64,000 nucleotides of DNA from Adenophora triphylla var. japonica. Its lineage: Eukaryota; Streptophyta; Magnoliopsida; Asterales; Campanulaceae. This document shows, piece after piece, positions 12,099 through 64,000 of this stretch. The stretch covers positions 248,001 through 312,000 of the forward strand of contig JAFEMH010002564.1 of NCBI GenBank assembly GCA_022495995.1, in the 5' to 3' direction. The notes beneath the pieces were generated by a model that saw only the letters and a program-made list of their open reading frames with translations, had not been told where the DNA came from and ran no database searches. Positions within the stretch are counted from its first letter, which is position 1. Every line of letters starts with the position of its first letter. Made by a program: the position numbers and the translations under genes.

Positions 12099-13513
12099 TG
12101 AAATTACCCGGATCCGAGCAGGCCTCGCGGCCCCGGCATCTGGCATCTTTCGCGTTGGAAGGTGTCTCGCCGTTTGTTTTCGCATTTGTAGAGTCGCCAC
12201 GCCGTTTTTATTAAGCCCAAAACATTGAAAAAGGGCATCAGTTTAAAGATAATTTTAAACCGTTTTTGTGTGATGAGATTTTGAGTTCGGAGGTCAGATG
12301 ACTCCCCGGGAAGAGAATATTAGAATATTAGAGCTCACCCGAGTAGCCTCGTAAAACGAGTCTTTCGGATACCCCTAATATCCTTTAAATGTTGTGTGTG
12401 TGTGTGTGTGCTTTTAAAAATGCATGCTGTATCGGATGTCTACATTGTATGCTATGTATGGAAATGTATTGAAATAGTATAGGAAGGAAGCCTTACCAAT
12501 GTTGGTTCGTGTATCTTCCGTGCAGGGAATGGTGTTTGAGGTCGGAGTAGCGTTCCGGTATGGATCGGGATTGCTTCGGGAGATGCCGGTTGTTCGCGGA
12601 CGAGTTCGGCGTGAGTTGAGGTTGCGAGCTGCGTTCGGGCGAAGGTTCGGCGTGCGTGGGGATCTTCGGGATCACTCGGGCGAGGGATTCGGCGTGCGTT
12701 GTGGTGGCGGGAGTCACTCGGGCGGAGTTTCGGCGTGGTTTGGGATCGTCGGTTTGACTCGGAAAGAGCCGGGACACCGTGGAAAGACCAGGCAAGGCCT
12801 CGGAGTACCACGAGGGGCCTCAGAGTACCTCGAGAGTGCCTCGGGACAGCGCGGGAGCGTCTCGGGAGCGCTTGGGGAGGCTTCGGAGCACCACAAGAGA
12901 GCTCGGAAGGCCTCAGAAGGATCCGAAAGGGGCCGGGAGTGCCTCGAGAGGACTTAGAGGGGAGCCGAAGGCTAAGGGAGGAAGAGAGAAGAGGGAGGTG
13001 TGTGAAAATGAGGAGGGGGAGCCCTCTATTTATAGTAAAAATTTCGGAGCAAAGAGGTCCGTACGGACCTTCTTGGTTATCCGAGAATTTTGGATTTCCT
13101 CGATTTGAGGGAATGCGCAATGATGGAGAATATTACGGAATGATGGTGTTCCACTGAGCAATAAGGTCCGTGACGGACCATCTTGCATGCAAAGAGGTCC
13201 GTACGGACCAACTCTGCAGGAAGTAATCATTTTCCCGGGATTTGAGGAATATTGTGGACTTTAAGGGGATTTAGTAATCATTGAAACAAAGAGGTCCGTA
13301 CGGACCTTAATTGCTTTTCTGATTTCACGAAAATTCCCGAAAGGTCCTTTTGTCCCTTTTTATCCCAGAGAAGGCTCCTCCACTTGGTTTGGTTGGGGGT
13401 TTGAGAGGGTTTTAAGAGGGTTTTGAGTGAGAGAGGTCTCCGAGGCTGCGTTGATGAGTACTGCGGTGTTTCCCGGGTGCTTGAAAGGGGTGATCCAGAT
13501 TGGGGTACTTACG
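12099..13513 (-). repeat. 3' LTR of B
   Basis: Matches 26555-27978 almost throughout. The inner end reads CGTAAGTACCCC on minus whereas the 5' LTR starts TGTAAGTACCCC. Contains a TG microsatellite (about 12388-12407), a PBS-like GGCGTGGCGACTC in U5 (12191-12203), a TATA box and four palindromes. Differences from the 5' LTR cluster at CAG/CTG sites. Confidence 0.92.
13022..13306 (-). promoter_or_regulatory. LTR promoter of B (3' copy): TATA and four palindromes
   Basis: CTATAAATAG on minus at about 13025-13034. Upstream are GGTCCGTACGGACC at 13056-13069, 13196-13209 and 13293-13306, and a version with one inserted base, GGTCCGTGACGGACC, at 13165-13179. Spacing is 87-140 bp. The unit at 13196 shares its GCATGCAAAGA and CAAC flanks with the copy before aORF1. 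Confidence 0.7.
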
Positions 13514-14990
13514 AAGCCCTCGATGACGTCACTTATGAAAGAAGTGGGGTTGCCGATAAGATAAGGGTCCTAATCTGGATCGCGTGTTGGGAGAGGAAGT
13601 GACCGTGAGGGTCAAGGTGAGGACGTGGTGGTGTCCTTTTGTGTGACCGCATAGGTCGGTAAATTTGAGACCTGTGATAGGATTCCTATGTATCCCTGGC
13701 GGGAATCAAGCACAGTCGTAGTTCGGGTGTGGGGTGAGTGTTTTGTGAATGCGGGCGTGGTGGTGCCACAGGTGTTGTGTGACCGCCGAGGTCGGTGGTA
13801 GAGACGTGGTGGTGTCCTGGGTGGCCGCGTAGGTCGATGGGTGGACCCGTGATAGGATTCCTACGTATCCTGGCGGGAATCAAGCACAGTGTCGTAGTTC
13901 GGAGGTCGTGAATTTGTGAGTGCGGGCGTGGTGGTGCCACGAAGTGTTGTGTGACCGCCGAGGTCGATGGTAGGGCGTGGTGGTGTCTGAAATGTGGTGA
14001 CCGCCGAGGTCAATTGTGAGGACGTGGTGGTGTCACAGGATGGAAATTTTACGATTTTCCTAATCGGGTGGTTTAAGGCCTTAGGGCCGGAGATAGAGTG
14101 AGGACTGAATCGTCTTCGATTGCGGTTGGTGCCACGGCGGAGGACTTTGAATCGTCATCCGCGGCGGTTGGTGCCACGCCGAGGACTTTGAATCGTCATC
14201 GCGGCCCGGTTGGTGCCACGGCCCAGAGGACTTTGAATCGTCTTACGGCGGCGTTTGATGCCACCCGGAGGACTTTGAATCGTCTTAGCGGCGGTTTGAT
14301 GTAATGCGAGGACTTTGAATCGTCTTCTAGCCGCGATTGTGGATGTAATGCGCGAGACTTTGAATCGTCTTCTAGCCGATTGTGGAGGCATGGTTGCCTT
14401 GTGCTTCGAGAGCGTAGATGCCTTTGTGTTTTTGCATGTTGATGTAGAAGGTTGGACTTACGATGGACTGCGGTGCTTACTTGGCTGCTGCCGTTGAAGT
14501 GGGCAAGGATGACGGCCGATGATTGCTTCACCATTTGGCATTTTGGGAGGCGCTTCGTGCCTTGGGACTTGTACTCGGAGGTGTTGGCTCCTTCGCGTGC
14601 TTGTTTTGCCGTTGAGTGGGCAAGGATGATGGTCGGTGCTGGGGATATGCAGTCTTGCATGACTTCCCTTTGACTTGTTGGGGAGGAGCTCGGGCTTACT
14701 TTGATGGCCGGTGCTTGCGCTGCCGTTGAAGTGGGCGAAGTTCGGGCTTACATCTGACTGCCGGTGCTTGAATTCTTTGAGGATGCGTGACCTTGTAGGG
14801 GCCGCTTTTACGTTGGGAAGATGACTTCGGACCTCTAGTGGTTGAGTTGTCGTTGAGCGTTTGGGCGTCTTGTGCCTTGATATTCGTCTTTGGGAGGTGT
14901 TGGCTCCTTCTTGAATTGCCGTCGGGCATCTTGGAGGCGTCTCGTGCCTTGGGATTCGTGCTGGGAGGTGTTGGCTCCTTCTTGAATTGC
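13514..14990. repeat. Degenerate short repeats and hairpin motifs before the B 3' LTR
   Basis: Three repeat classes. 13600-14040: units of GTGACCGCCGAGGTCG with GTGGTGGTGTC. 14130-14380: six copies of GAGGACTTTGAATCGTC about 45 bp apart. 14490-14990: loose units of TTGCCGTTGAAGTGGGC. The CTACG/CGTAG hairpin motif occurs at 13681-13726 and 13856-13901. No gene; short open frames are repeat translations. Confidence 0.75.
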
Positions 14991-15885
14991 CGTTGAGCGG
15001 GCGGTGGTTGAATTGCCGTTGGAGTGGGCGAGGACCGGTCTTGCGCTTGACGGCCGGTGGTTGAATTGCCGTTGGAGTGGGCGAGGACCGGTCTTACGCT
15101 GACGGCCGGGGATTGATTTGCCGTTGAAGTGGGCGAGGTCCGGTCTTACGCTTGACGGCCGGTGGTTGATTTGCCGTTGAAGTGGGCGAGGTCCGGTCTT
15201 ACGCTTGACGGCCGGTGGTTGAATTGCCGTTGGAGTGGGCGAGGACCGGTCTTACGCTTGACGGCCGGTGGTTGATTTGCCGTTGAAGTGGGCGAGGTCC
15301 GGTCTTACGCTTGACGGCCGGGGATTGATTTGCCGTTGAAGTGGGCGAGGATCGGTCTTACGCTTGACGGCCGGTGGTTGAATTGCCGTTGAAGTGGGCG
15401 AGGACCGGTCTTACGCTGACGGCCGGGGATTGATTTGCCGTTGAAGTGGGCGAGGACCGGTCTTACGCTTGACGGCCGGTGGTTGATTTGCCGTTGAAGT
15501 GGGCGAGGATCGGTCTTACGCTTGACGGCCGGGGATTGAATTGCCGTTGAAGTGGGCGAGGATCGGTCTTACGCTTGACGGCCGGTGGTTGATTTGCCGT
15601 TGAAGTGGGCGAGGTCCGGTCTTACGCTTGACGGCCGGTGGTTGAATTGCCGTTGGAGTGGCGAGACCGGTCTTACGCTTGACGGCCGGTGGTTGAATTG
15701 CCGTTGGAGTGGGCGAGGACCGGTCTTACGCTTGACGGCCGGTGGTTGAATTGCCGTTGGAGTGGGCGAGGACCGGTCTTACGCTTGACGGCCGGTGGTT
15801 GAATTGCCGTTGAAGTGGGCGAGGACCGGTCTTACGCTTGACGGCCGGTGGTTGAATTGCCGTTGAAGTGGGCGAGGACCACGGC
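14991..15885. repeat. Tandem array of about 54 bp x 16 in B
   Basis: Unit: TTGCCGTTGAAGTGGGCGAG then GACCGGTCTTACGCTTGACG and GCCGGTGGTTGAA. Copies vary at few positions (GTTGGAG/GTTGAAG, GACCGG/GTCCGG/GATCGG, GGTTGAATTG/GATTGATTTG), and the variants alternate in blocks. The array runs straight into aORF2 sequence at 15886. Confidence 0.92.
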
Positions 15886-17462
15886 CAGTATCGGGGCCTA
15901 TGTTCGGGGTACCGGCCAGGTGACGGCGGAGCAGTTGGCGCGCTCCTTTTTGTGGTATGCACTGTCCGAGACTTTGTTCTCGAACCACGCGACCGCAGCT
16001 CCCTTTGCTTTGTTGGAGAGCTTGACTGATCTGGATAGGGTCTGCGACATTGCTTGGGGTGAGGCGGGCTTGGCGAGCTCTACTTCTCCTTGGACCGGTT
16101 TAGCGGGGGTGGCTTGATTCGTTGGCTGTTTGACTTTGCTCTCGGAGGTATGAGTTTATTCTTGTTTTTGATTTAGCAACCCGTCATTTCTCCATTGTCT
16201 TTTCTGAGCCTTCTCTGTTTTGTCACAGTGTGGTTTTATGAGGTTTTCCGGTGCTTCCCGTGGGATAGGGATCCTGGGGATTCTTTGGGTACCTGCTATG
16301 CTAGGGCCGGGCTCGTACGGCGAGGAAGAGGAGGACAGGGGGGAACCATCGCCTACGAGGGATGTGCGAGGAGCGTGCGGAGAGAGATAGCCGTGAGGGG
16401 TTTGTCTTGTTCCCGTGGACTCGGTATGAGGGAGATGAGTTTGAGGGGGCACCCGAGGTGACGGCGCGGCGGAAGATCTTTGCGGGGCTTGACTTGTGAT
16501 GTCATGTACTTGGGGGAGCGGGTCTTACGCGGCATGGCCCCCGGTGTGCTTCCCGTGGCTCAGGGACCCTCCCTTTGGGATGCTTGACTCCGGGATATGG
16601 ATGTGCTTGACTTCGAGAGAGTACCTTGGCGGTGTCGGTGCCGAGGAGTTCATTTTATACGGAGAGGAGTACGGGGCCTTCGTGAGGAGGAAGGCGGGAC
16701 GCCGCGAGTCTTGGCGCGGGAGAGAGAGGCCGCCCGCGAGCTCCCCGAGGTTCCGATGCCGGGACCGGATTTCACGTACGTCCGCGGACGGAGTCGAGGA
16801 GGAGGGTGTATGCATGCCCGTTCCTAAGCGAGCTCTGCTTGCATACCGAGTGGATCCCCAGACGGATCGGTGAGTGTGCGACCCTTTTCCATCTTGGCAT
16901 CTTTTACGCATTTTCTCTTTTTGTTGTTGAGTATAACCGCATTTGATGAGCGTTTCCTTGGGCGCTTGTTGGTGCGGAGTCCCGGGGAGAGCCTATGATA
17001 TGCGGCTCGCCGTTACGTGGCGCGATGCGCTCCTTCGCTAAGAAGATGGCGTCGAAGGTGTCCTGCCGGTCTTCGCGTCGTGTGCCGGCGTACGAGCCTA
17101 TGCCTTCGAGGCATTACGCAGCAGACGTTCCTCCGCCTAGAGCCGAGCCGGAGCCGCAGCGGGAGGGACCTTTGAGGCGGCATAGCATGGATGCCGGGAC
17201 ATCTTCGGGAGCTGCAGGGCCTTCGAGGGAGCAGCCCTTTTATCAGTTCATGCCTCCGCACGGCGCACAGGGTGAGGGTTCCTCAGAGCCTTCTTTCTTT
17301 GATCCTTTCGCCGGATTTGATCCTTCTGAGTACTTTTCGTGGGAGCCTCCGGCGGGTGCTCGGTATTCCGACGACGAGGATGTGACGGGCGAGTTTGCTG
17401 GGATGCCCGACTTTTCTTTGGAGGACCTCGGTGAGGATGATGATGCTGAGGATTCTGATTAG
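15886..17462 (+). pseudogene. aORF2 of B: plant mobile domain gene, 5' end replaced by repeats
   Basis: The first exon and the start of exon 2 are missing. The surviving exon 2 (to 16147) reads VTAEQLARSFLWYALSETLF, then LLESLTDLDRV and IAWGEAGLAS, the helical core typical of the plant mobile domain (LF.......LL.DLD..G.YAWG.A.L). Intron from GTATGAG at 16148 to GTCACAG at 16228. Exon 3 (16229-16869) begins VWFYEVF like E1 and has frameshifts. Intron 3 starts at GTGAGTG (16870); its acceptor is weak (GCGGAG, 16979). Exon 4 ends with a long acidic tail (DEDV, EDLGEDDDAEDSD) at the TAG 17460-17462. Confidence 0.7.
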
Positions 17463-17800
17463 TATTCATTTGCTTTCCCTCTTTTCATATCCCTCCTTTT
17501 TTTTTTTGTTTAGCAACAGACATTTTGGGTACCTGTAATAAAACACATGTATTTGCATGGCAAACAGTATTTTATTTTAAGATGTAATGTCATTTTTGTG
17601 ATTCCCGGGATTTGTCCTAGAAATTGTTGCTATTATTATTTTTTATTTTTGTACATGCCACGTGAGCTGAGAGTGTGTTTGTGGGTAGTGTATGTTTGCG
17701 GGAATGGCTTTGGCCAGTGTTTGGGCGATTTGGAGCAAGGTTTCTTGAGGACGGTGGTTGTTATGCTTGTTTCTTTGAGGAAATGGGTTGTTTGCAAGGA

Positions 17801-17845
17801 GGTCCGTACGGACATACTTAGCATGCAAAGAGGTCCGTACGGACC
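17801..17845 (+). promoter_or_regulatory. Two B-type palindromes upstream of B aORF1
   Basis: GGTCCGTACGGACA (17801-17814) and GGTCCGTACGGACC (17832-17845), 122 bp before the aORF1 ATG, in the spacer 17463-17966. The second copy keeps the same flanking bases as the LTR copy at 13196-13209, so it is not a chance 14-mer. The spacer holds no gene. Confidence 0.7.
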
Positions 17846-17966
17846 AACCTTGCTTTTGGGAAGGACATAAATGCTTTCCGATTAATCCGGTTCTTCCTCA
17901 TTTCCCCATTTGCGGCCATTTTCGAGCTTTCTTCCCCATTTTCTCTAGGAACCTCCATTTTTTGCC

Positions 17967-19479
17967 ATGGATTCTTCGTACGTCCCTAGTATTTTGCCAA
18001 GGCTTTCGCAGGAGAGGCAAGCACACTTTCTTGAGCAGTTGAAAACGTGGATGCGGCGCCGTATGAGGCATCGTAGACGGGCTTTCGAGGTAAGGTTTCG
18101 TCTTTGCTCGGTTTGGTCTTTTAAGGAGTTGGTTCCTGATTGGGATTTGTTGCGGGCCGCCGCGAAGTTGCAGGATGTTAGGAGGCATGTGTCTTGTTTC
18201 TCCTACAATGAAATGGTGCCCACTTTTGAGGATTTTCGGGCTTTGATTGGAGGACCGGAGGTGGAGGCCATCTCGGCTTCCTTTGATTGGTGGTGCTTTG
18301 CGGTGAGCGTGAAGCTTGCGAGACTTTCTTCGTACTTCGCTGGAAGAAGTGCAGGGGCATGATCCTTGATTCGGGTCATATCGACATTTCGAGCTGCCGG
18401 AGCGGTTCATGGTTGATGATGAGAGTGACGTCTCTTGGGATGTATTTGCCTTGTGCGTGATGGCGACGCTTTTCCAGTCGGTTCCCTTGGCATTTGTGAT
18501 GGCGCTTTGCTAGATGTGGTAGAGACGCTGCGAGTGGAGAGGATATTGTCCCGTTGGTGCTTGGGGAGACTCTTCATGGTATCGGACCGTGCGGCGGGGA
18601 TCGTTTTATGAGAGGGGAAGCCCCGCTTTGCTCACCTTGTGGCTGCGAGAGAGACTTCAGGCCATGCCCGAGGCTCCGACGTCGTTTAGCCCGTGGTAAT
18701 TTGCTTTCAGCCGACCTCTTGTGTTGGATATGGATCGATCCGCCTGGGAGAGATGGATGGCACGGCTTGGTACGCATCGATCCGGCGGTGGGTTCCGCCT
18801 GGAGGATTGAGACCAGGAGGATCTTGCGGGAAGGGTCCTACGTTGTCGAGTTCCAGTTTGTCTTGGTCCTCCTTCTATATTCCGTCGCTTGTTTCCGGCG
18901 GTTTGGGATGAAGCGGGAGCCTTTGTTGGGTGGGATGACCTTGCTACTTGCGGAGGTAGTTCCTCTTTGTATGGCAGCTCCAGTGCCTTCTTGTATTGTA
19001 CGAGGGTATGGAAGTATTCCGCTTTCCCTCTGTGGTACTCCTTAGACGGCGGGGAGCGTTGTATTGACGACTCGGTATACGGCACAGTATGAGCGGCATG
19101 TTGGCGATCCCAAGTGGTCTTGGAGAGAAGGCGTGCGCGGATTCAGGACCCGTTTGCCGTAGTAGCTATTGCCTTAGGAGTGCCGAAGCACAGTCGACCC
19201 TTTGGATGTGACGGGAGACACTTTGTTTGACTACGAGACTAGAGTTGACCGGCCCGACGGGGAGAGGTCCTCTTTACGGACTCGCGAGGAGGAGATCCGA
19301 GCCGAAGCACGGGCGAATGAAGCCACGAGAGCTATTGGATTATTTGACTCTACGGGAGGACCCCGGATCTCGGGCGAGAGACGCGAGAGTTGGTTCACGT
19401 GGAGCGAAAGAAGACTCGCCGGGGACGAGGGAAGAAAGGAAAGAATGGCGAGGGGACAAGCGCAGATGGCGCAGAATGA
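17967..19479 (+). pseudogene. aORF1 of B: DUF7745/PMD-like gene
   Basis: The first 131 codons are open: ELVPDWDLLRAAAKLQDVRRHV, shortened here as PDWDLLRAAAKLQDVRRH, then NEMVPTFEDFRALIGGPEVE. After 18360 the match to E1 continues with frameshifts (GEDIVPLVLGETLHGIG near 18550; FYIPSL near 18880). It ends basic (KTRRGRGKKGKNGEG) at a TGA 19477-19479, at the same distance from pol as in E1. Length, order and position match E1 aORF1. Several lesions; not functional as read. Confidence 0.65.
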
Positions 19480-20309
19480 CCTCCTAGGTATCCATTCATT
19501 GCATTGCAAACACATTATTAGTTAAATGTATTAAGCTGTCTTTTAGCATGTTGTGAACTTGAGAGTCGACCGTGCTTGAACTCATCAAGAAATGTTGTAA
19601 CCGTTAGTGATTTGTGATTTACTTTTAAAGCTTTGTCGAGACGCAAGATCTCTTGTTTGCCTTTGCTTACATTTGTGCACTTTGTCGGCGTCCATCTTTG
19701 GACTTTTCGTTGCATCCGCGCACCGAAGAAGTCAGGCCACGACGGCAATCTCCTTTCTTTGAGGCTTTGTGCTCGGCTGAGAGGTTGAAGGCTTCCCTGA
19801 CAAGTCGTTTTGACGGTCTTTTTTCGTAGCTTCCTTGCCCTTTGTTGGCGTCGGGCTCTTGACCTCAATTTCGCAGCTTCTGCTTTGAGCTTCTTTTGTT
19901 TTTTTTGTGAGCCCTTGCTCGAGCTCTCTTTTTTTTGTGAGCCCTTGCTCGAGCTCTCTTTTTTTGTGAGCCCTTGCTCGAGCTCTTTTTTGTTTTTTTT
20001 TGAAGCGCGTGAGGGCGAAGACAAGCCCCCGGCTTGGAAACAACATGAGTCGGTCGTTTGATCTTTGGGTGACCCTCGGATGTCCTTTGATGTTTCCGCC
20101 GTCGTTTGACTTGGTCAAGGTGACTCTTTGGGCGTGTTCTTGAAAAGTGCGTAGCTTGATGGAGGTCTTGATTGACATTCAAACTTTTGACTTTTTGTGT
20201 ATTTTTAGACCGGACCAATTAAGGTTGCCTACGTTCCCCGGACTAGAGGGCTCGTGCTGCGTAGTTCGACACTACATGGAGTGCCAAGAGATGCACAGCT
20301 TGTTCTTCT
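19480..20309. other. Spacer between B aORF1 and integrase
   Basis: No gene. Contains three tandem copies of GTGAGCCCTTGCTCGAGCTC (19905-19990) separated by T-runs, and the hairpin motif (20227-20266, minus: GAACTACG ... GGGGAACGTAGGCAACC). Translated frames here are low-complexity Lys/Ser-rich and repeat-derived. Confidence 0.6.
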
Positions 20310-21690
20310 TCGGGCGAAGTATCTGCGAAGTTTGCTTCCGTTATTTGGATTCATGAAGGGATTGCCGTCTAGGTACGTTAGCTTCATGGCGCCTCAGGAG
20401 AAGATCTTTTGAACCACGAAAGGGCCGATCCATGTGGGTTCCCATTTTCCCAGTGGGTTGGTTCGAGTGGGAGGCTTTTCTTTGAGTACAAGGTCACCTT
20501 CCACGATGTCTCGGGATTTGACTTTCTTGTCGAAAGCTCTAGCCATCCTGCTTTGATAGGCTCGGACGTGTTCCATGGCCTTTAGTCGTCGCTCATCTAG
20601 CGAGAGCCAATTCGTCATATGTCGGCTTGAGCCATTCGACTTCGTTGATGTCATTTTCCAGCACTCGGAGTGAGGGAATTTCCACTCGATGGGAAGGACA
20701 GCTTCCATCCCGTATGTCGGGGCAAATGGGGTTTCTCCGTGGTCGTTCGACCGGCGTGCGGTAGCCCCAAAGTGCAAGGTGCGGCTTCTCGGGCCAATTT
20801 CGTCCTCGGGTGGTCATTTTTCGGATGATCCGTTCGAGGGTTTTGTTTCTTTGCTTCCACGGCGCCGTTTGTTTGTGGCCGGTAGGGAGAAGATTTGTGA
20901 CGTGTGATCTTGAATTCGGCCGGTGCAGCCGAATTCCCTTCGAAGTGTGAGCCGTTGTGCGATATGACCTCATTTGGGATACCGTATCGGCGGATGATGT
21001 TTTCCTTGAGGAAATGCGCGACCTTCTTGGAGGTGAGTACCTTGTAGGACTTGGCTTCGACCCATTTGGCGAAGTAGTCGATGGCTACTAAGATGAACTC
21101 GTGACCGTTCTTTGCTGGCGGAGCGATTTTCCCGATGACGTCAATTCCCAAGTGGCAAAGGGCCAAGGTGTAGTCATGCGGTAGAGATCGTGGGGCGGTA
21201 GATGATTGAGGTTGGAGAACCGGGTTGGCACTTGTCGCGGCTTCGGACAAAGTGGATGCAATCTGCCTCCATGGAGATCCGGTAGTAGCCCATCCCGAGA
21301 ATGATTTGCATCGGGGCTCGGCGTTCATGTGGGGACCGCAAGCCCCATTGTGGACTTCGTTCATGAACGGCTTGCTTCTTCTTGACCGATGCGGCGTAGG
21401 AGTGGCCCATGGTAGCGTTTCTTGTATAGCATGTCCCCGAGGATGACGAAGTGAGAGGCAAGGCGTTTTAGGGTCATGATGCTCTTGGTTTTGACCCCCT
21501 TCGTGTGTGGGTCTTCCTTGTTCATGAAGGTGATTTCCCCGCTCTTGAGGTGTGGGAAGATCTGGTTTTGTCTTTGGAAATGGCATCGGACTTGCGTCTC
21601 TTTGGCTCTTCAGCAATCTTGCAAATCGTTGTGATTAAAACCTTCTCGCGGCTTGGGCCCGGTTTTCTCTCGTTTGACAAACATGCTTAA
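20310..21690 (-). pseudogene. pol: B integrase
   Basis: The zinc region has NEVHNGACGPHMN and a broken CDKCQ. The core has LGIDVIGKIAPPAKNGHEFI and VDY-like AIDYFAKWVEAKSYKVL. The second catalytic position reads ISHNGSHFEG where E1 has ISDNGTHFEG, so the aspartate is lost. TRHKSSPYRPQTNGAVEA is present; several frameshifts follow. The C-terminal domain has GPFVVQKIFS then TGA then GAMKLTYLDGNPF, and its normal stop is lost. It must be inactive. Confidence 0.8.
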
Positions 21691-22331
21691 ATGTTTGCTT
21701 GATGCATTTATTTAATTAATGTGTTTGTCTTTTGTATAGATGAATTGTTATTAACTTGTTTTGATTAGTTAATATCATCATTTGTTAAAGATGCAATGAA
21801 ATGATTTTTAGGAAGGTCGGACCTTTTATTGAAAGCGTGAAGATCGTACATTGTTGACCAAAGATTCACAATTGTCGGGCGTAAAGCCGTCAAAAGACTC
21901 AAAAGATGTGAATACACGAGACAACAAGACTCGAGGCTAGACTATAGGCGACGAGGATTGGACCGAGCTTCATTACTCTCGGATGGCTGTAGCTCTAGAG
22001 GGAGTGGTGCTTTGGTTCAGTGTGGCCAATCTTCCCTTGGCATGAGTCCGGAAAGTAGCTTGCATGCGGTTCGATTTCAAACCGGATCGCGGAAGTTTTT
22101 GGCTGCTCCCACGATGATGTCCCTCCATTAGTGTTGCCACCGAGTCCTTGGGGGTTTTTGATGATAGAAGTCCCTCATGGCTACTTCTAGGAGGGCGAAG
22201 CATTCGGCGATCGGAGTGGATTCTTGCGATGTTGATCACTTTCATAGAATCTGCTTCTTTATGCGGGATCTTTGCTTGGGACGACGTTTACAATGTACGA
22301 TTCGGCGGACATGCTATATCTCCTTCCACGA
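21691..22331 (-). other. Region of B where RT and RNase H should be
   Basis: Only about 640 bp separate integrase from the post-protease linker. I find no YVDD-like motif or other RT or RNase H landmark in any frame. AT-rich sequence around 21690-21830 may mark a deletion scar or an unrelated filler. Confidence 0.55.
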
Positions 22332-25249
22332 TTAAGCCTTGGAGGAGGTTGCGCCATTGTTCGTCAGTCGGACACCGAAATGTTGAATTGGACTAAGCTG
22401 TGATGGCCGTCCCCGTAAGATCCGAGAGTTTCGGCTAGAGGGTTGTCTTGTATCGGGGATCGGTGATGAGCCGGTTGCAAGAGGGTTTTCGGCGAAGTAA
22501 GGGTCTACTCCTCGATCAATCTCCATTAGGGCATCCATCTCTTGATCCTCTCTCAAGCATTCTTCACGATCGCATATATCGAGTTGTCATCGACCCATGA
22601 GTTCTTCAATTTCCGGCTCGTCGCGGCTTAGAGCGTGGATGTAAGGATCCACTTCGTAGCGGGACGGGGTAGGAGAATCATCTGGAGAAGAGTATTCGGT
22701 CATGTCGGGACCTTCTTGGGTCATAGCTTGCGGCCAAGCACTTGCCATTACCTTGCTTCCTCGGATCACTTCGATCGCTCCATTGGCATTGATGAATTTT
22801 ACGCATTGGTGAAGAGTAGATGATCTGCTTTCATCGATGTATCCAAGGCTGTCCCAACAAAGCAGAGAAGGTTGGTTTGATTTCCACGACTTGGAACTCT
22901 ACCGACTCCAGTTGTACGTCGAATTGGATCCTCAAATTGATGACTCCTACGATTGGTCGTGCAGTGGAGTCGTAGGATCGGATTACCCGAGGTGAAGGCC
23001 TTATCGTAGAACGGTCGATGCGGAGTCGTTTCAATGTGCTCAAAGCGATGATGTCGATGGCTAACAGAGCCGTTATCAATCAAGACGTTCGGGAGGAAGA
23101 ACATCTCTATCTTTATGAGGATGAGGAGGGCTTCGTTGTGCCGATTCTCACATATTGGCAAGTCATCGTCTGTGAAGGCTAAACCGCTTCCCGTGCTACC
23201 GTTGGACTCAGTCTCGTCTGGGGAACGTTCGATCCATCCATTTGTATGCCTTGGCTGGGGCAAAGATCGTAGGGAGACAGTGGCCCTTGGTCGTTCTTGT
23301 CGGAATTCCCGGTCACGAGACCTTTTGACTCTTGTTTCACGCTCCCAGTCATAGCGGGACAGCATGCTGACGGTTTCGGAAATTGCAGGGAGTATGCTCT
23401 CGCTTGGAGTTTCATCAAAGGCTATTGAGTTTACCCTGTCGTTCCGTGGGAATGGATTTCCGATGGTATTGGGACCACGGGGGCGTTCCAATTTTCCCTC
23501 CTCAATGAGCCTGGACCACCCGCTTGAGTACGAAGCAATTGTCGGTGGTGTGGCCGGGGTAGTTGTGGAAGGCGCAAAGTGCTTGCTCATATCCATGTTG
23601 GGTTTGAGGGTCTTCGGTTGGAAATTCTCGAGTGGTTTGAGAAGATTTCGCTTCACCAAAGCTTCAAATACTTGACCCAAGGGCATTTCCGGGTTATCTA
23701 AATGCTTTGGGCGTGGGAAGCGAGGGGGTTGCTATTCTTTGGGCTGCTTGATCGCGGTTTACTTGAGCTCCGTTACGAATGTAGTGCCTATTCCATTTGC
23801 TTCCTTTCCTTTGGTCGGGCAGGAGTTGAAGTTGCCGGAGTTTGTTCGATAGCGGTAAGATGAGGCGGGGGTTCTTTGTTGCCTTTTGAAGACTCGAGTC
23901 TTTTCAAACTTTGTCCGGCGTTGACCATGGCACGGAGATCTGGATAGAAATGGTGGCCGATCAAGGTTCTCAAAGATGGCTTGAGGCGGGAATGGAAGAT
24001 GTCCATCTGCTCTTCTTTGGAAAGTGGATCCATTATCTCGCTTAGCTTCCAGTTCCATCTTTTGTAGAATTCGCCCACTTGGTTCGTCATCCTTTTGTTC
24101 GGTGGCTTGCGAGTCATGGCGGTTTGTTTCCCATTCAAGATTGGCGCGGTACTTCTCCAGAAGATTTCACCGATCCGATCCCACGTGGAGCGGTTTTGCC
24201 TTCACATTGAGGAACCACCTTAGTGCTTTGTGGATTTGAGGGAATGCTGAAAATGATGCGCCATCTGTTGAGGGGTTGCCCCTTTGGCTCTCATACCCGG
24301 GACGTAGGTGTCGATGTGGGTTTTTGGGCATTACATTCAGTCAAACTTTTCCATTTCCGGCATCCCGAACTTTGGAGGGAGAGGGACCACTTTGTTCGGA
24401 TCGGTAGGCGGGAGGGAGTCCTTCCGAGAACTAGCTAGCTTGCCTTGCATGTCTTTCATTTGTTCAATCGGCCGGGCCATGTGGGGATCACTGTGCGAGG
24501 TGGGTTACCGTTTTCGGGGACGGACACCGAAGATGGGGGTGGATTGGGCGATGAGATCGCCATTCGGGAGTCTTGGGGAGGTAGTTGAGTGTATACCAAC
24601 CCATACCCTGGGGTGTTGAAGTTGAGGGCGTGATTGCCGAGTCCGCTAAGGGTTGTGTTTGGGAACCTGGGAAACGATTCGTTAGCCCCAGTGGCGGACT
24701 AGCGGTGGCAAGCTTGAGATGTCGGGATATCCGCTCGGGATGCCTCGTCCCCGGTAAGAATGGGGACTTTTGATTGTGGTTGCGAGGCTCGTATAGAGGC
24801 AAAGGATTGAATCCTGGGGATACCGAGATGCATTGGGATACGCGGAGCGAGCACGTATGTGTGCTTTGTTGGTAATGAGCTTGATGTGCGTGAGCCGGAA
24901 ACCGACCGATCCGAGGCGGGCATGTCTGGAGCCGGCTGACCGATGCCGGAGGGGATCTTTGAGCGAGAGCCGCTGCGTTGCTGGGATCTCGTAGCTTGGC
25001 GGAGGCGGGACCCTGCGATAGCTTTGAGAAACCGGGGAGCCGGTATATCTTCGTCCTCTATGAGAACAAAGGTTCCGTCGGGTTGGGAATGGCTGTTCCT
25101 CGAAGACGCAAGGTGTCGACGATCCAGGCTTGTGTTCTTCTTGGCGCTTCTTGATGGTTTCGAAGGCTCGCAGCACCTCCTCAATTGTCCTGGAGGTTCC
25201 TTAGTGGCGGGGTTCCGTTTCCCTCAACATTATCTGTTGATCCCGTCAT
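22332..25249 (-). pseudogene. gag: B gag-protease
   Basis: Start at the ATG 25249-25247 (MTGSTDNVEGNG). Capsid-like Gag sequence around 24400-23790: FYKRWNWKLSEIMDPLSKEE, then FHSRLKPSLRTLIGHHFYPD and LRAMVNAGQSL. The protease region lies at 23180-22800: HNEALLILI, VLIDNGS (active-site Asp), and ALLGQPWIHR. Beyond it is an acidic linker to 22332. Multiple frameshifts. Assigned by matches to A (51040-51250) and to the protease fragment in D. Confidence 0.75.
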
Positions 25250-26536
25250 GGGGAGTATCGGACGGTGCGGACCGTTGAACCGGAAGGGCTATCGGACCTT
25301 GTGACCTCGATGCGAAAAGGCGGCTTCCGAGGATTCTCAACCACTCTCGGTTCGCTGGAGGGTGACGGGCAAGGTTTAGACACGGGAATGGCCTAACGGG
25401 ATAAAAGGGGAAAGCTCACGTGGCATGCGGTTTCCGTTTCTTTTATTTTCTCGATTTTTTTTTGTTGTTTTAATTTACTTAAAACAGTATTTTCTCGAGA
25501 ATCCTAGGTAGGTTGGAAAAGATTGCTCTTGTTTTTCGCAACTATGCTAGATCCTGGGTCGATGGAGACCATACGTGCGGCTATAAGCCCCTCGTTTTGC
25601 ACCCGTATTTCGACATCCCGGGGTGGACGGCCCGGGCGAGGGTCCTATAGTGCAAGCGTTTCCACCGGCCTAAAGAAAAATCGAACCTAAGGACCGAGCC
25701 TTTGTCATGTTCGTTTTGATGCGTTAGCCATGTGAATAGTGAACCGAGCCGGCCACCGAGTCAAGATCAGGTCAAGAGTTCGGCATGACCTCTCTTTACC
25801 TTGCTTGCGCAAGGGATCCGTGACGTTAGGCGTTAGGCCGGGTCATTTCGTCATGGCCGACGTATCAAAGGCGTGATGACATGGTGTCATGCAAGCATGG
25901 ATGTATATCCGGGACGGAACATCGTGCAGGTGTAGCTTCGGAAATCAAGATCGTGTCAAGATTTTAGCATGACCTTTCATCGCTTTGCTTGCGCAAGGGA
26001 TCTTGAGTTAGAGCTTTGACTCGAAAAATGGCCGGCATGGTATATGTATCCAGTGTATGACACGGGCCAGGTAAAACCAACCGAGTCCGGACAGAGTGTG
26101 ACTCAAGATTCAAACGTGCGGGGTTGACGCTTGGCTAGGATGGGATGTTTGGAATGATCCCGTGCGCGCCCAAGAGGCCTAGGAAGACCAAATGGACCGC
26201 AACCGAGACCACTCCGGGTTAAGGGTTGTAGTGTGCGGTGTATCCGGCGGCCGGTGCGCGTAGTGTGCGGTGTAACCGAGGCGGCGGTGCGCGTAGTGTG
26301 CGGTCTCTAAAATTCTTTTTACGAGTAAAATAGAAGTTTTTGAAGAATTTTAAATGTATGCACGTATGTATATTGATGCATTTTTTTTTTTTTGTATTTT
26401 TTTTTTTTGTAAAATAAACACGAAGCACGTGCACACACACACACAACGCTTAAAGGAAGGGGTAAAATGAAAGTTTGACCCTCATCATCGTTTTAAAAAT
26501 CTTTTGTTTTGTTTAAAAGTTTTTAAAACAAAATTT
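25250..26536 (-). other. Leader of B
   Basis: Noncoding as read. Two copies of CTTGCGCAAG (25804-25813, 25987-25996) sit in the same context as the TTCGCTCAAGCGAA palindromes of A. The GCACACTACGCGCAC-type motif appears three times in tandem (26228-26307). Traces of the leader ORF (EGLI ... DPGSS) are at about 25500-25650. T-rich and CA-repeat tract at 26380-26450. Confidence 0.6.
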
Positions 26537-26552
26537 CCCAATGGAGTCGCCA
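26537..26552 (-). promoter_or_regulatory. Primer binding site of B
   Basis: TGGCGACTCCATTGGG on minus, two bases after the LTR end GGGTAATTTCA. Confidence 0.85.
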
Positions 26553-26554
26553 AC

Positions 26555-27978
26555 TGAAATTACCCGGATCCGAGCAGGCCTCGCGGCCCCGGCATCTGGC
26601 AATCTTTCGCGTTGGAAAGTGTCTCGCCGTTTGTTTTCGCATTTGTAGAGTCGCCACGCCGTTTTTATTAAGCCCAAAACATTGAAAAAGGGCATCAGTT
26701 TAAAGATAATTTTAAACCGTTTTTGTGTGATGAGATTTTGAGTTCGGAGGTCAGATGACTCCCCGGGAAGAGAATATTAGAATATTAGAGCTCACCCGAG
26801 TAGCCTCGTAAAACGAGTCTTTCGGATACCCCTAATATCCTTTAAATGTTGTGTGTGTGTGTGTGTGCTTTTAAAAATGCATGCTGTATCGGATGTCTAC
26901 ATTGTATGCTATGTATGGAAATGTATTGAAATAGTATAGGAAGGAAGCCTTACCAATGTTGGTTCGTGTCTCTCTCTTCCGCCTGGGAATGGTGTTTGAG
27001 GTCGGAGTAGCGTTCCGGTATGGATCGGGATTGCTTCGGGAGATGCCGGTTGTTCGCGGACGCAGTTCCGGCGTGAGTTGAGGTTGCGAGGCTGCGTTCG
27101 GGCAGAGGTTCGGCGTGCGTGGGGATCGTCGGGATCACTCGGGGGCGAGAGGTTCTGCAGGCGTGCGTTGTGGTGGCGAGAGTCACTCGGGCAGAGTTTC
27201 GGCGTGGTTTGGGATCGTCGGTTTGACTCGGAAAGAGCCGGGACACCGTGGAAAGACCGAGCAAGGCCTCGGAGTACCACGAGGGGCCTCGAGTACCTCG
27301 AGAGTGCCTCGGGGCAGCGGGAGCGTCTCGGGAGCGCTGGAGGCTTCGGAGCACCACAAGTGGAGCTCGGAAGGCCTCGGAAGGATCCGAAAGGGGCGGG
27401 AGTGCCTCAAGAGGACTTAGAGGGGAGCCGTAAGGCTAAGGGAGGAAGAGAGAAGAGGGAGGTGTGTGAAAATGAGGAGGGAGCCCTCTATTTATAGTAA
27501 AAATTTTGGAGCAAAGAGGTCCGTACGGACCTTCTTGGTTATCCGAGAATTTTGGATTTCCTCGATTTGAGGGAATGCGCAATGATGGAGAATATTCTGG
27601 AATGATGGTGTTCCCTCGAGCAATAAGGTCCGTATTTTAATTCATCTTGCATGCAAAGAGGTCCGTACGGACCAACTCTGCAGGGAAGTAATCATTTTCC
27701 CCGGGATTTGAGGGAATATTGTGGACTTTAAGGGGATTTAGTAATCATTGAAACAAAGAGGTCCGTACGGACCTTAATTGCTTTTCTGATTTCCTGAAAA
27801 TTCCCAAAAGGTCCTTTTGTCCCTTTTTATCCCAGAAAGGCTCCTCCCTTGGTTTGGTTGGGGGTTTGAGAGGGTTTTGAGAGGGTTTTGAGTGAGAGAG
27901 GTCTCCGAGACTGCGTTGATGAGTCTGCGGTGTTTCCCGGGTGCTTGAAAGGGGGTGATCCAGATTGGGGTACTTACA
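26555..27978 (-). repeat. 5' LTR of B
   Basis: Starts TGTAAGTACCCC on minus at 27978 and ends GGGTAATTTCA at 26555. TATA box at about 27487-27496; palindromes GGTCCGTACGGACC at 27518-27531, 27660-27673 and 27760-27773; a fourth, at about 27627, has lost its right arm. PBS-like motif in U5 at 26648-26660. Confidence 0.92.
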
Positions 27979-32518: not shown

Positions 32519-32523
32519 GATTT

Positions 32524-37440: not shown

Positions 37441-37763
37441 CATAGTGTCAATTGAACTACATCCTAGTCAATTTCGACAACAATTCATGGCGAAGTCAAA
37501 AGCCCCAATTCGGGCACCGAAATCCCTAAGTTCATTCCTAAACAAATTTCTAACATTTAAAGAATGCACATTCTTAAAATTAATGGAATTTGTAGGAAAC
37601 TTACTTGTCTCTTGATCCCATCCTTGGAGTTGTGTCTATCCCTCGCCGGATAAAACTCCGCCGGATTCAATGGATGCACAATGGTTCGAATGGTCCGAAC
37701 CAATCGAGTTCTTTCGTCATCGGTCCTTCCGTGGCGAGCCATTGGTCCCAAATCACCTTCCAT
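37441..37763 (-). pseudogene. aORF2 exon 1 and start of intron 1 in D
   Basis: ATG at 37763; the exon reads MEGDLGPMARHGR, then RLVRTIRTIVHPLNPAEFYP and ARDRHNSKDGIKRQ, ending at donor ACAA/GTAAGT (37605/37604). It matches E1 exon 1 (3920-4030) and more distantly A exon 1 (61174-60998; TPPSELYPGRREHKS). Intron sequence 37604-37441 matches E1 4031-4190. The remaining exons are deleted. Confidence 0.7.
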
Positions 37764-38975: not shown

Positions 38976-39798
38976 GGTCCGACCTCCACTCTCCTATCGA
39001 GACCTTCGCTGTTCGTCTTCCCGGCAACAGCAATAAGCCCGAACCCCAAGGCACGAACGCCTTGCAACAATCCCTCTTCGGCCATCCTCGTAAGCCCGAA
39101 CACCTTTCCACTCCAGCAAGTGAACATTCATCTCCCCGGCCGCCAGTCGTAAGCCCGATCGTTCCACCTCAGCGGCCGTCAAGGTAAGCCCGCACAACAA
39201 TCCCTCTTCGGCCATCAAGGTAAGCCCGAATGCTCATCCCCAGCAGGATTCTAAAGAAGAAATGTCGATCCCGCCGTGTTGTTAATAACGCCAGTTTAAC
39301 ACAACCGTTCTCATCAGTACCGCCGTATCCCCAGCAGGATAAACCTGGCAACAGCAATAAGCCCAGCACCCAAGGCACGAACGCCTTCGTCACAGGATAA
39401 ATGTATCCTCGCAACTCCGGTTTGAGGCGCCACACGCCCTCGTATGATTCAGCAACTCCGGTTTGAGGCGCCACACGCCCTCGAAGGTTTCAGAAGTCCC
39501 AGGTTCAGACGCCTCCCAATAGTCTCCATTCAGGTACAGGTACCTCGCGAATGGTCTCATTCAGGTTTAGACGCCTCCTAACATGTCTCGCTCAGGTCAA
39601 GGTCCCCATGCGCGGCCCTTGCCCCCTTTCGAACTACGATCGGCTTGATTCCCGCTCGGGATACGTAGGAATCCTTTTCGCTAAGGGTCCAGCCAGCTGA
39701 CCGCCCAGGTCTCTTTCAAAGTAAGGCATCCCGATTTGGATCCTTATCTTTTTCAACGACCCCACCTCCTTCGGAAGTGACGTTGCTGAGGGGCAAAC
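38976..39798 (+). other. 3' noncoding region of D
   Basis: No gene. Short diverged repeats (GTAAGCCCGAAC, CAACTCCGGTTTGAGGCGCC), the hairpin motif GAACTACGATCGGCTTGATT ... GATACGTAGG (39631-39674), and AGTGACGTTGCTGAGGGG directly before the 3' LTR, the likely plus-strand priming zone; A has AGTGACGTTGCCGAGGG there. Confidence 0.6.
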
Positions 39799-46509: not shown

Positions 46510-48111
46510 TGTAAGTACCCAAATCTGGCTCATGCCTTCCGGTTAATTTTCCCGACATTTTCGGTAAGTTTTCCGGTAATTCCCCAGACCTTCCCAGCGT
46601 TCCGGGAGCATTCCGGAACTGTTTTTAATTAAATTAGGGCTGAAGGGAATCCTTCCTAATTAAGAAACACGTTTTTCTTAATTAGGAAGAGCCTTCTAGA
46701 ATAATGCCACCTTGCATGGTTCTAGAATGCTGAGTCATTCAGGATAAGACCGCACGGCCTCATTTGCAAAGGACCTGCAGCCGCACGGCTTCATTAGCCT
46801 TATCCAGATTACCTATAAATAGAGGCCTCCTCTACCCATTTCAAAAAAACAACAAGACACACAATAGAGATACAATACACTCACAAACACAATCAGTACG
46901 TGAAGAACACCCTCAAGGCTCAAGAAGGCGAAGAAGAAGCTCAAGAAGCCATCTCCTCCTCCTTCAAGACCCAAGACGAACCTCTCCTCCTAGCTCCGTC
47001 CGAAGAAGCGAAGGAAACGATTGGTAACCTCGCACGCCCTAACCTTGCATTTTAATTGATATACTTGCTCATTGCATTCATATATCTTGCTTGGGACTTG
47101 GCATTTATTCATAAAGATCATTTCTTTATCATTCCCCTTCCCCTTTGCATGCATTAAGACCTCATTTGTCATAAAAATGTAGTCTTTTTCATAAAGGTGC
47201 ATCCTTTGCACCTAAAACCCCTATTTTCCAATAAAAATGTTATCTTTATGCATCATTTGCATATAAAGATCAAATCTTTTTCAATAAAAATGCATCCTTT
47301 GCATCAAAACCCCTTTTTCAATGCATCATTTGCATAAAAATCCTATCTTTATGCATCATTTGCAATAAAGATCCTTTCTTTAAATCAAAAAGCATCATTT
47401 GCAAACATAAAATGTCATCTTTTCATTAAAGAGTCATTTTTCATCATGCATTCCCCCTTTCCCCAACCTTGGAACGGACCGTGTAAAAGTTCTCATCTTT
47501 GCATCGTTCCTTCCATTAAAGGTTCATGATTTCTTTAGGAAAAGGATAACCTTGAACCCTATATCTCCGATTATCGCTTAAGAATGAGTATGAAGCCTCT
47601 ATACGAGCTCGACCGTCTTAAAGCGTAGGATTGATGGGCTAAGGACATTCCTTCCTAAAGAACCTCATCTTTGACCACAAAGAGAGTCATTCTCTCGATC
47701 ACGCAAGTCCCGAGGGTCCCGAGGTTAAAATGCGATGATCACAAGTCACAAGATGAGGACGGGATCATAATCCCAAATACATAAATTCCAAGGAATCCCG
47801 AGCGACAACCAACAAATGGTTTGTACGTCCGGAAGATAACTTGGGACATTTCCCCCTTTTACTCTCAAACACATGCACACAAAGAAAGCACGCAAGCAAG
47901 CACGATTGATGAAATCTTGGGAGACTTGCTCCGGCAAGGCACTTTGGGTGAACGCCAAACGTTCTTCCCAAGGGGTAACTTAACCTCCGAACCCATAATA
48001 CCTTTTTTTCAAAGTTTTGAGGTAATCAAAATGGCGTGGCGACTCCGTTTTTCAAATAACTCGGATGTCTTCAAACTCGCGTGAACACCAAAAATTTGGG
48101 GCACACATTCA
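46510..48111 (+). repeat. 5' LTR of A
   Basis: 1602 bp, TGTAAGTACCC to CACACATTCA. About a dozen ATGCATC(C/A)TTTGCAT-like units at 47200-47430. PBS-like GGCGTGGCGACTCC at 48033-48046. Confidence 0.9.
46749..46821 (+). promoter_or_regulatory. LTR promoter of A: two CCG-NN-CGG boxes and TATA
   Basis: ACCGCACGGCCT (46749-46760), AGCCGCACGGCT (46780-46791) and TATAAATA (46814-46821). The 3' LTR repeats them at 63124-63135 and 63154-63165. Confidence 0.7.
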
Positions 48112-58209: not shown

Positions 58210-58251
58210 AGCCGCACGGCTTCATTTTCCTCAAGGCCATGCCGCACGGCT
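58210..58251 (-). promoter_or_regulatory. Two A-type boxes upstream of A aORF1
   Basis: AGCCGCACGGCT (58210-58221) and TGCCGCACGGCT (58240-58251), with CTTCATT or CTACATTAGCC after them as in the A LTR (GCTTCATTAGCC). Confidence 0.65.
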
Positions 58252-61320: not shown

Positions 61321-61365
61321 AGCCGTACGGCTCCTTTTTCTCCATCTCATGCCGGCGGCTTCATT
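61321..61365 (-). promoter_or_regulatory. A-type boxes upstream of A aORF2
   Basis: AGCCGTACGGCT (61321-61332), a perfect palindrome, and a damaged GCCGGCGGCTTCATT (61351-61365); 147-190 bp before the ATG at 61174. Confidence 0.6.
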
Positions 61366-62330: not shown

Positions 62331-62883
62331 CGTTCCTAACTATCTAGTGATGCTTGAACTACGATCAAGGCTTGATTCCTCCGGGATACGTAGGTAGCCT
62401 TTTATAAAAGGTTCAGCCATTCGACCACTTTGGTCACCCTCGTTTCTTTGTCACTCCTCGCGATAAAGCAGGCCCTCATAGAGGTTCGTATATCCGACCA
62501 CCTCGGTCACTTCTAGCATATCCCCAAAGAGGATCAATTGCTTGACCTCCTAGGTCATTTTCTCTTCTATTTCCCCTAGCGAGGGCAGTTTCTCTTCTTC
62601 CTCCCCCAGCGGATCTTTTCCGAACTACGATCTGGCTTGATTCCTCTGGGATACGTAGGTAGCCTACTTTAGGTTCAGCCAATTTGTCACATATGACACC
62701 CCATTCCCCAGCGGATCTTTTCCGAACTACGGCCTGGCTTGATTCCTCCGGATACGTAGGTAGCCTTCCAAAAGGTTCACCCACTCGACCACCTCGGTCA
62801 CCCAATCCGTCTCGGCATTCGCCGCATCGATCCTTTTCTATCGACAACCCCACTCGCCTTGCAAGTGACGTTGCCGAGGGCTT
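62331..62883 (+). other. 3' noncoding region of A with three hairpin motifs
   Basis: GAACTACG ... GGCTTGATTCCTC ... GATACGTAGGTAGCCT at 62355-62400, 62622-62664 and 62724-62766, each followed by TTCAGCCA/TTCACCCA and GACCACCTCGGTCAC-like text. AGTGACGTTGCCGAGGG lies directly before the LTR. No gene. Confidence 0.65.
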
Positions 62884-64000
62884 CGTAAGTACCCAAATCT
62901 GGCTCATGCCTTCCTAAGCTAATTTTCCCGACATTTTCGGTAAGTTTTCCGGTAATTCCCGTATTCTTCCCAAATGCTCCGGAGCATTCCGGAACTGTTT
63001 TTTAATTAAATTAGGCTGAAGGGAATCCTTCCTAATTAAGAAACACGTTTTTCTTAATTAGGAAGAGCCTTCTAGAATAATGCCACCTTGCATGGTTCTA
63101 GAATGCCGAGTCATTCAGATAAGACCGCACGGCCTCATTTGCAAAGGACTCGCAGCCGCACGGCTTCATTAGCCTTATCCAGATTACCTATAAATAGAGG
63201 CCTCCTCTACCCATTTCAAAAACAACAAGACACACAATAGAGATACAATACACTCACAAACACAATCGACGTGAAGAACACCCTCAAGGCTCAAGAAGGC
63301 GAAGAAGAAGCTCAAGAAGCCATCTCCCTCCTCCTTGAAGACCCAAGACGAACCTCTCCTCCTAGCTCCGTCCGAAGAAGCGAAGGAAACGATTGGTAAC
63401 CTCGCACGCCCTAACCTTGCATTTTAATTGATATACTTGCTCATTGCATTCATATATCTTGCTTGGGACTTGGCATTTATTCATAAAGATCATTTCTTTA
63501 TCATTTCCCTTCCCCTTTGCATGCATTAAGACCTCATTTGTCATAAAAATGTAGTCTTTTTCATAAAGGTGCATCCTTTGCACCTAAAACCCCTATTTTC
63601 CAATAAAAATGTTATCTTTATGCATCATTTGCATATAAAGATCAAATCTTTTTCAATAAAAATGCATCCTTTGCATCAAAACCCCTTTTTCAATGCATCA
63701 TTTGCATAAAAATCCTATCTTTATGCATCATTTGCAATAAAGATCCTTTCTTTAAATCAAAAGCATCATTTGCAAACATAAAATGTCATCTTTTCATTAA
63801 AGAGTCATTTTTCATCATGCATTCCCTTTCCCCAACCTTGGAACGGACCGGTGTAAAAGTTCTCATCTTTGCATCGTTCCTTCCATTAAAGGTTCATGAT
63901 TTCTTTAGGAAAAGGATAACCTTGAACCCTATATCTCCGATTATCGCTTAAGAATGAGTATGAAGCCTCTATACGAGCTCGACCGTCTTAAAGCGTAGGA
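62884..64000 (+). repeat. 3' LTR of A, truncated by window end
   Basis: Begins CGTAAGTACCC where the 5' LTR has TGTAAGTACCC, and aligns with 46510 to about 47640, with clustered differences at CAG/CTG sites. Confidence 0.9.

Follow-up and report, generated by a model that had tools for sequence, protein, structure and literature searches.

Dyad sites common to the long terminal repeat and antisense promoters of nested gypsy-type retrotransposons may form an element-encoded switch

Are the antisense genes of a gypsy-type retrotransposon controlled together with the long terminal repeat (LTR) of the same element, and if so, through which site? The question is raised by a 64,000-nucleotide stretch of Adenophora triphylla var. 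japonica (assembly GCA_022495995.1, contig JAFEMH010002564.1, positions 248,001 to 312,000), which is made up of nested LTR retrotransposons and is plant DNA as judged by the elements present; this whole stretch is the window referred to below. Three families are represented by the elements B, D and A, together with a D-related fragment (E1) and an A-like LTR (E2), and candidate genes on the strand opposite pol are designated antisense open reading frames (aORF1 and aORF2). An initial annotation proposed that each family uses its own form of a CCG-NN-CGG palindrome both at the LTR and before the antisense genes, and that this is a dimer-bound site co-evolving with an element-encoded factor. 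The evidence points to a promoter-proximal dyad operator common to LTR and antisense promoters, which is very probably real and strongly non-random.

The core palindrome CCGNNCGG (CCG-NN-CGG) occurs 29 times in the window, against 11.6 expected from a first-order Markov model. As had been claimed, it is concentrated at promoters: 22 of the 29 copies fall in the 300 bp upstream of either an LTR TATA box or the candidate ATG of an aORF; the other seven lie elsewhere (17256, 18587, 24731, 39652, 45183, 57155 and 59289). At least one copy is found in all 12 LTR and antisense-gene windows of 300 bp, or in nine of nine when one LTR per element is counted, although only about 5% of such windows are expected to hold one by chance. 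Since the LTRs of A and E2 are homologues (85-87%), a strict count might give eight promoters rather than nine. When 448 palindromes (3-nt arms, spacers of 0-6 nt) are compared, CCG-NN-CGG is the only motif to reach nine of nine, the runners-up reaching five. In 300 draws of nine random non-promoter windows, the best of the 448 motifs never exceeded seven (maxima of 3 in 43 draws, 4 in 180, 5 in 62, 6 in 14 and 7 in 1). These figures apply to promoter windows selected after the initial annotation had indicated them, with start codons chosen by eye for the B, D and A aORFs; the E2 LTR, the only promoter off that list, carries the palindrome too (3671). The aORF2 genes of B and E1 are not among the tested promoters: the 5' end of the B gene was not located (a 53-bp tandem array spans 14993-15880), and the E1 promoter is unusable because the similarity of E1 to D ends at 3920, where the E2 LTR starts.

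Within the LTRs, the sites occupy a consistent position. The U3 promoter of the B 5' LTR (27497..27796, minus strand) has three dyads with cores at 27521, 27663 and 27763, the last of them in the direction of transcription lying 24 bp before TATAAATAGA (27496), and the B 3' LTR promoter (13035..13334, minus) has cores at 13059, 13199 and 13296. In the D 5' LTR promoter (35076..35184, plus) 92 bp separate the cores at 35079 and 35171, with the second core 21 bp upstream of the TATA box (35200); those of the D 3' LTR promoter (40204..40312, plus) are at 40207 and 40299, the second with centre TT. Cores at 46750 and 46781, 31 bp apart, mark the A 5' LTR promoter (46749..46791, plus), where the last site is 25 bp before the TATA box (46814), and cores at 63125 and 63156 mark the A 3' LTR promoter (63124..63166, plus). 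In the E2 LTR promoter (3634..3680, minus) the core at 3671 is intact and lies 56 bp upstream of the TATA box (3614); a further site, about 31 bp closer to that box, has one mutated arm. The distance from the last LTR site to TATAAATAGA (24 bp in B, 21 in D and 25 in A) is unchanged between the two LTR copies of each element, in agreement with the proposed placement just upstream of the TATA box at 21-25 bp.

Antisense promoters show a second, equally regular arrangement. In B, cores at 17804 and 17835, 31 bp apart (promoter 17801..17845, plus), lie 155 and 124 bp upstream of the aORF1 candidate ATG at 17967. The single E1 aORF1 site (6990..7003, plus; core 6993) is 130 bp before the ATG at 7131, and the palindrome of D aORF2 (37915..37928, minus) is 154 bp before a candidate ATG at 37763. 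The A aORF1 promoter (58210..58250, minus) has cores at 58212 and 58242, 30 bp apart and 135 and 165 bp upstream of the candidate ATG at 58076, and the A aORF2 core (61321..61332, minus; core 61323) is 20 bp before TATTTAAA and 148 bp before the candidate ATG at 61174. Thus the proximal site is 124, 130, 154, 135 or 148 bp from the candidate ATG in five of five genes, with the B, D and A ATGs placed by eye, and all of these sites, at 124-165 bp, lie upstream of the aORFs as first described. A TATA-like octamer (at least six of eight positions, four TATA forms scanned) is found 16-29 nt downstream of the site in four of the five aORF promoters. The null rate of 0.147 per promoter gives about 0.002 for four of five (calculated by hand), a figure that is optimistic, since TATTTAAA joined the scanned forms only once it had been sighted in A aORF2.

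All sites named at the outset are present, with small corrections. The site at 13165 in the B 3' LTR exists as a degenerate copy about 30 bp from 13199, with a 3-nt rather than a two-base centre, and is lost from the 5' LTR copy. The A sites are likewise in place, but the first of them in each LTR (46749, 63124) has the core ACCGCACGGC, so that its flanks are not palindromic. The statement that core and two-base centre are kept fails for the centre, which is TC or TT rather than GC in the second D LTR site and TA rather than CA in A aORF2. A spacing of 30-31 bp, roughly the length of one dyad or three turns of the helix, separates paired sites in B aORF1, A aORF1 and the A LTR; in E2 and the B 3' LTR, one partner of such a pair is degenerate.

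Symmetry extends beyond the core. The 15 promoter sites were aligned in element sense, with LTR duplicates omitted and the seven non-promoter copies of CCG-NN-CGG serving as controls. An outer TG, its T being the eighth or ninth base past CGG, is present in 21 of 30 promoter arms (10/15 on the sense side, 11/15 on the antisense side) versus 2 of 14 among the controls. When di- and trinucleotides at flank positions 4-26 were scanned, after inspection of the alignment and with identical arms collapsed (13 sense, 15 antisense), TGC at 8/9 tied for first place on the sense side (p 2.6e-8) and TG at 9 led on the antisense side (p 1.9e-9), both uncorrected for 3680 tests. The symmetric matrix reads TGCA-N5-AGTCCG-NN-CGGACT-N5-TGCA (in shorthand TGCA-N5-AGTCCGNNCGGACT-N5-TGCA), and its top 23 hits include all 22 known sites, LTR duplicates counted. 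Such a ranking is circular, so each family was held out in turn: among 64,000 positions, B sites then rank 13-23 and D/E1 sites 18-39, and the held-out B and D/E1 flanks alone outscore every control site. The D aORF2 site is the centre of a 28-bp near-perfect dyad, with 13 of 14 positions complementary by eye. The step from the inner CGG to the outer TG is about one helical turn, which would fit a protein reading successive grooves on one face of the DNA. The one intruder in the full ranking, 26087 (26075-26106; 11.9 bits), is the best unlisted hit and lies in the B 5' leader about 470 bp past the LTR; it was judged too weak to count, and could be a degenerate site.

Each family has its own version of the dyad flanks, as had been noted. 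All seven aORF sites are nearest to LTR sites of their own family at each of three flank widths tried, the E1 aORF site being compared with the D LTR since the LTR of E1 itself is outside the window. Up to 14 nt from the core, which was excluded, aORF and LTR sites agree at 16.4 of 28 positions within families (16 pairs) versus 9.7 of 28 across families (33 pairs), whereas own-family identity at 15-40 nt is at chance level (12.9/52). Own-family identity is 16.4 in element sense versus 11.2 with one site reversed, and one B LTR site is identical to a B aORF1 site over 28 bp. The common unit, of the order of the 36 bp examined, therefore runs in the same direction along the element although the promoters oppose each other. 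A match limited to 14 nt and better in sense could stem from copying between U3 and aORF promoters; sense-preserving copying within the family, for example by template switching during reverse transcription, would probably explain both likeness and orientation.

Which protein might read such a site? In the proposed mechanism, each family would carry a dyad operator of about 28-32 bp, with an outer TG or TGC roughly one helical turn beyond CCG-NN-CGG on either side, and this operator would act as a promoter-proximal element of the LTR promoter and of the aORF1 and aORF2 antisense promoters. One dimeric DNA-binding protein would read both kinds of promoter, making LTR and accessory-gene transcription respond jointly. 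The binder would most likely be the plant mobile domain (PMD)/DUF7745-like product of the element's own aORF, which would create an autoregulatory circuit with family-specific sites, and copying between U3 and aORF promoters would probably keep the sites within a family alike. Because a dimer-type, promoter-proximal and family-specific site is present at both promoters, transcription of LTR and aORF is probably linked. That a dimeric aORF product binds the dyad and autoregulates the LTR and the accessory genes is a tentative proposal, given slightly less than an even chance. The more specific version, in which an antisense-encoded dimeric regulator of the PMD superfamily reads a family-specific dyad of about 30 bp in the LTR and in its own promoter as a self-contained switch, must be held more tentatively still.

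The aORF products themselves offer several clues. E1 aORF1 (7131..8630, plus, antisense to pol) has one in-frame stop (7677-7679), and its N-terminal part weakly resembles DUF7745 (E 4e-4, 20 bits; cut-off 26). Protein searches found one relative of the aORF1 C-terminal part (P0001, 49% identical) and one of aORF2 (P0002, 78% identical to the E1 aORF2 open stretch at 5415..6113, plus), from contigs of 1,557 and 1,431 bases, and no relative of the aORF1 N-terminal part. P0001 matches the C-terminal end of the PMD profile (E 0.075, 12.6 bits versus a cut-off of 34.9), and an E1 aORF2 piece weakly matches the PMD profile (E 0.03, 13.9 bits versus 34.9). These resemblances are leads rather than memberships. 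Among solved structures, the E1 N-terminal part gave one match at chance level (E 0.79) and P0001 none. B aORF1 (17967..19460, plus, antisense to pol) contains several frame breaks, and these coordinates give the region translated, its end being undefined. Between E1 and B, aORF1 is under purifying selection, as evidenced by a ratio of nonsynonymous to synonymous change of about 0.32 (118 codons; synonymous change near saturation), compared with 0.18 for an integrase piece.

Several observations weigh against an aORF product as the reader of a symmetric dyad. All PMD and DUF7745 matches fall below the curated Pfam cut-offs for family membership, the C-terminal part of E1 aORF1 lacks a PMD match at E<=1, and P0002, a close relative of aORF2, lacks one at E<=10. 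Stops or frameshifts interrupt aORF1 in E1, B and A, and aORF2 in A and D. AlphaFold models of the N- and C-terminal pieces of E1 aORF1 have a mean predicted local distance difference test score of 37.7 and 34.6 and are thus unusable. The dyad is weakest in family A, which retains the core and only in part the outer TG: held-out A/E2 sites rank 15, 37, 174, 368, 1397 and 2314, and their flanks alone beat every control at one of six sites. The symmetry of the dyad is also incomplete: 12 of 15 sense arms have GC at +9/+10, compared with 5 of 15 on the antisense side. The 30-31-bp spacing is not followed by intact sites in the B 5' LTR (100 and 142 bp apart) or in the D LTR (92 bp), and the D aORF2 promoter lacks a TATA-like box where one would be expected. 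Finally, family-matched sites can arise by copying, which weakens the case that a family-specific protein has co-evolved with them. In the one aORF1 block that could be compared among three families, B and A are most alike (32/38, versus 27/38 for E1-B and 23/38 for E1-A), whereas the TCCG..CGGA arms are common to B and D/E1; no simple covariation of protein and site is visible. The initial proposal is consequently supported in part, for a dimer-type, family-specific site at both promoters; its co-evolutionary part is weakened, since copying would equally account for the match within families and the aORF1 block gives no sign of covariation.

LTR promoters commonly use host factors, and the same dyad could be the site of a dimeric host transcription factor serving both kinds of promoter, LTR and antisense, with variation between families being tolerated and the sites of one family kept alike by copying. 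A LOB-domain or other plant-specific factor is presumably a candidate. Such a factor has a substantial claim, one that nevertheless falls clearly short of even. One common reader predicts what is seen in the inner CCG..CGG, which is present in all families even though the LTRs of B, D and A show no mutual blastn match (E<=1e-10, >80 nt) except at the B-A LTR tip, with a few weak B-D pieces by tblastx (E 7e-5). Copying accounts for the match within families, and the failure of aORF1 likeness to track site likeness is as expected if the reader lies outside the element. A host factor does not so readily explain why centre and flanks shift together by family at both kinds of promoter (7/7). A text search with the literal site strings found no plant transcription factor paper by title, and a literature search on LOB-domain palindromic sites gave no usable lead. 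As a weak control, CCGNNCGG is absent from 27978-34674, which includes a copia reverse transcriptase (33197-34735), and occurs once in 41869-46177 (45183), the copia LTRs not being located. The SBP/SPL site has a GTAC core; it was rejected as a general reading, as GTAC arises only from the B centre and in A aORF2.

Two further explanations dispense with a DNA-binding protein. The palindromes could be hairpins in the genomic RNA, serving packaging, dimerization or export with the stronger flank always in element sense, as the excess of GC on sense arms and the higher LTR-aORF likeness in sense orientation would suggest. Three of six folded stretches are indeed stable for their composition (z -3.6 for the B LTR, -5.9 for B aORF1 on the aORF strand and -2.9 for D aORF2), but the other three are not (-1.0 for the D LTR, -1.1 for the A LTR and +1.3 for E1 aORF1). 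A two-base centre allows no loop unless the core opens, the spacers between outer TG and core are not conserved across families, and distances of 21-25 bp to the LTR TATA box and 124-165 bp to candidate aORF ATGs point to transcription, which makes an RNA function quite unlikely. Alternatively, the sites could be a functionless residue of chance duplication within each family. The 28-bp identity of B LTR and B aORF1 sites indicates that duplication did occur. However, the core is kept across families that lack a long LTR blastn match, at similar distances to TATA box or ATG, which sets it apart from all 447 other palindromes tested; a neutral origin is, if anything, the least likely of these explanations.

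VANDALs are DNA transposons of the MULE kind. The parallel drawn at the outset between their VANC proteins and the proposed aORF reader holds in logic only, because the elements here are LTR retrotransposons with one to three intact sites per promoter rather than DNA transposons with a high-density motif. In the available text of PMC5735166 and PMC10398659, VANC proteins read family-specific motifs in VANDALs, and the likeness lies in short non-coding motifs that differ between related families and form single-orientation arrays. There the element-encoded protein reads the motif, with binding and demethylation demonstrated for VANC21, whereas for the A, B and D elements an aORF product is a proposed binder. 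The VANC21 motif YAGTATTAY is non-palindromic, dense and often tandem; the dyads described here are few, palindromic, promoter-proximal and in LTR retrotransposons.

Closer in genome structure are the antisense genes of other plant gypsy elements. Retand antisense ORFs carry TRP28 (PF04195), marked by a predictor as DNA-binding and of unknown function, according to the portion of PMC11963269 at hand; they too lie between pol and the 3' LTR, have a proposed regulatory role and share their region with tandem arrays. No cis site is described in that portion, and no TRP28 match was found in the aORF pieces scanned here at E<=1, nor at E<=10 for the E1 N-terminal part, P0001 and P0002, so these pieces lack the TRP28-bearing antisense ORF that marks the Retand lineage. 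That scan left out the N-terminal block of A aORF1 and the starts of A, D and E1 aORF2, and all copies are broken. The maize Grande gene23 is likewise an antisense accessory gene with its own internal promoter, and encodes a nuclear protein (reviewed in PMC7264820); the passages available there do not mention a site shared with the LTR. According to PMC6317226, 57% of Ogre and 23% of Retand elements have extra ORFs marked by PMD and Transposase_28. A link between PMD and promoters comes from MAIN/MAIL1, PMD proteins tied to a promoter motif (DOWN) and to silencing of transposable elements in the accessible parts of PMC7156037 and PMC9899485, to which the aORFs here would be distantly PMD-like counterparts. 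In its MORC1 promoter form CATGCAGTTT (PMC7156037, PMC9899485, as excerpted), DOWN is not clearly enriched at the dyads. It was rejected as their identity: there were no near matches versus 0.10 expected at one mismatch, one versus 0.71 at two and a mild excess, 10 versus 5.4, at three.

The elements that carry the dyads fit the Tat clade of Ty3/gypsy by a gypsy-type pol, with RNase H followed by integrase, and by antisense ORFs between pol and the 3' LTR. Past integrase, E1, B and A have aORF-like frames on the other strand, and D retains the start of aORF2; the position before the 3' LTR is seen in B and A, the E1 3' LTR being outside the window. Element B (12099..27977, minus) has LTRs at 12099-13512 and 26555-27977, 96.4% identical over aligned bases, and a 5-bp direct flank repeat, CCGCC. 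The non-autonomous element D (34675..41868, plus) has LTRs at 34675-36784 and 39793-41868, 97.0% identical, with flank repeat CATAG. Element A starts at 46511 (plus), its 3' LTR runs to the window end, and its LTRs are 97.1% identical over the part within the window. E1 (3921-12098, minus) is a fragment with RNase H and integrase that matches D at 89% (3920-4203 versus 37431-37715), and the E2 LTR (minus), 85-87% identical to A, starts at 3920. The LTR 5' ends of D (34675), A (46511), E2 (3920) and B (27977) have a common tip, TGTAAGTACCC(A/C)AATC(T/C)GG, even though the B, D and A LTRs show no longer blastn match.

Profile matches of the E1 pol are to RT_RNaseH (55 bits, cut-off 24.8) and Integrase_H2C2 (35.8 bits, cut-off 25.5), with rve at 32.5 bits just under its cut-off of 32.6. 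The original RNase H next to reverse transcriptase is the only one found in the scanned E1 piece; the position of an additional RNase H (aRH) defines Tat subclades, as given in the available part of PMC6317226. Searches of IMG/VR gave no confirmed relative of the E1 integrase and no match to GTCCGNNCGGAC plus TATA box. Each element has an internal tandem array of its own, in B at 14993-15880 (53-bp unit), D at 38136-38982 (34 bp), A at 61564-62056 (50 bp) and E1 at 4294-4522 (37 bp). These arrays contain none of the top 45 dyad-matrix hits; TCCG-N7-CGGA is present within the E1 array unit. In D (36717-37763, minus), the aORF2 promoter and start are followed in the same strand and frame, after three stops, by a 220-aa ORF resembling a region of the B sense-strand polyprotein (22746-23218; tblastx E 3e-36), which is presumably protease-like. 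An inverted pol piece thus lies antisense behind the aORF2 promoter of D. At 30989-32539 (minus), a 517-aa open frame adjoins the copia reverse transcriptase and weakly matches Transposase_32 (E 0.0026, 18 bits versus 45).

The function of the antisense ORFs in plant Tat-type retrotransposons is called unknown in the available text of PMC7264820 and PMC11963269. Literature searches, which left subscription journals mostly uncovered, found no report of a site shared between LTR and antisense promoters, and the accessible part of a paper on plant LTR motifs (PMC11656987) has no passage on palindromes. A shared operator provides a defined bait of 30 bp, turning the statement that an aORF product probably binds DNA into one that a single experiment can test directly. 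If the proposed switch is real, its family-specific sites would spare related elements and host genes, and, to our knowledge, no earlier trans-regulator of this kind has been described for an LTR retrotransposon of plants. With the shared operator, gypsy elements would then have their own equivalent of VANC or the retroviral transactivators.

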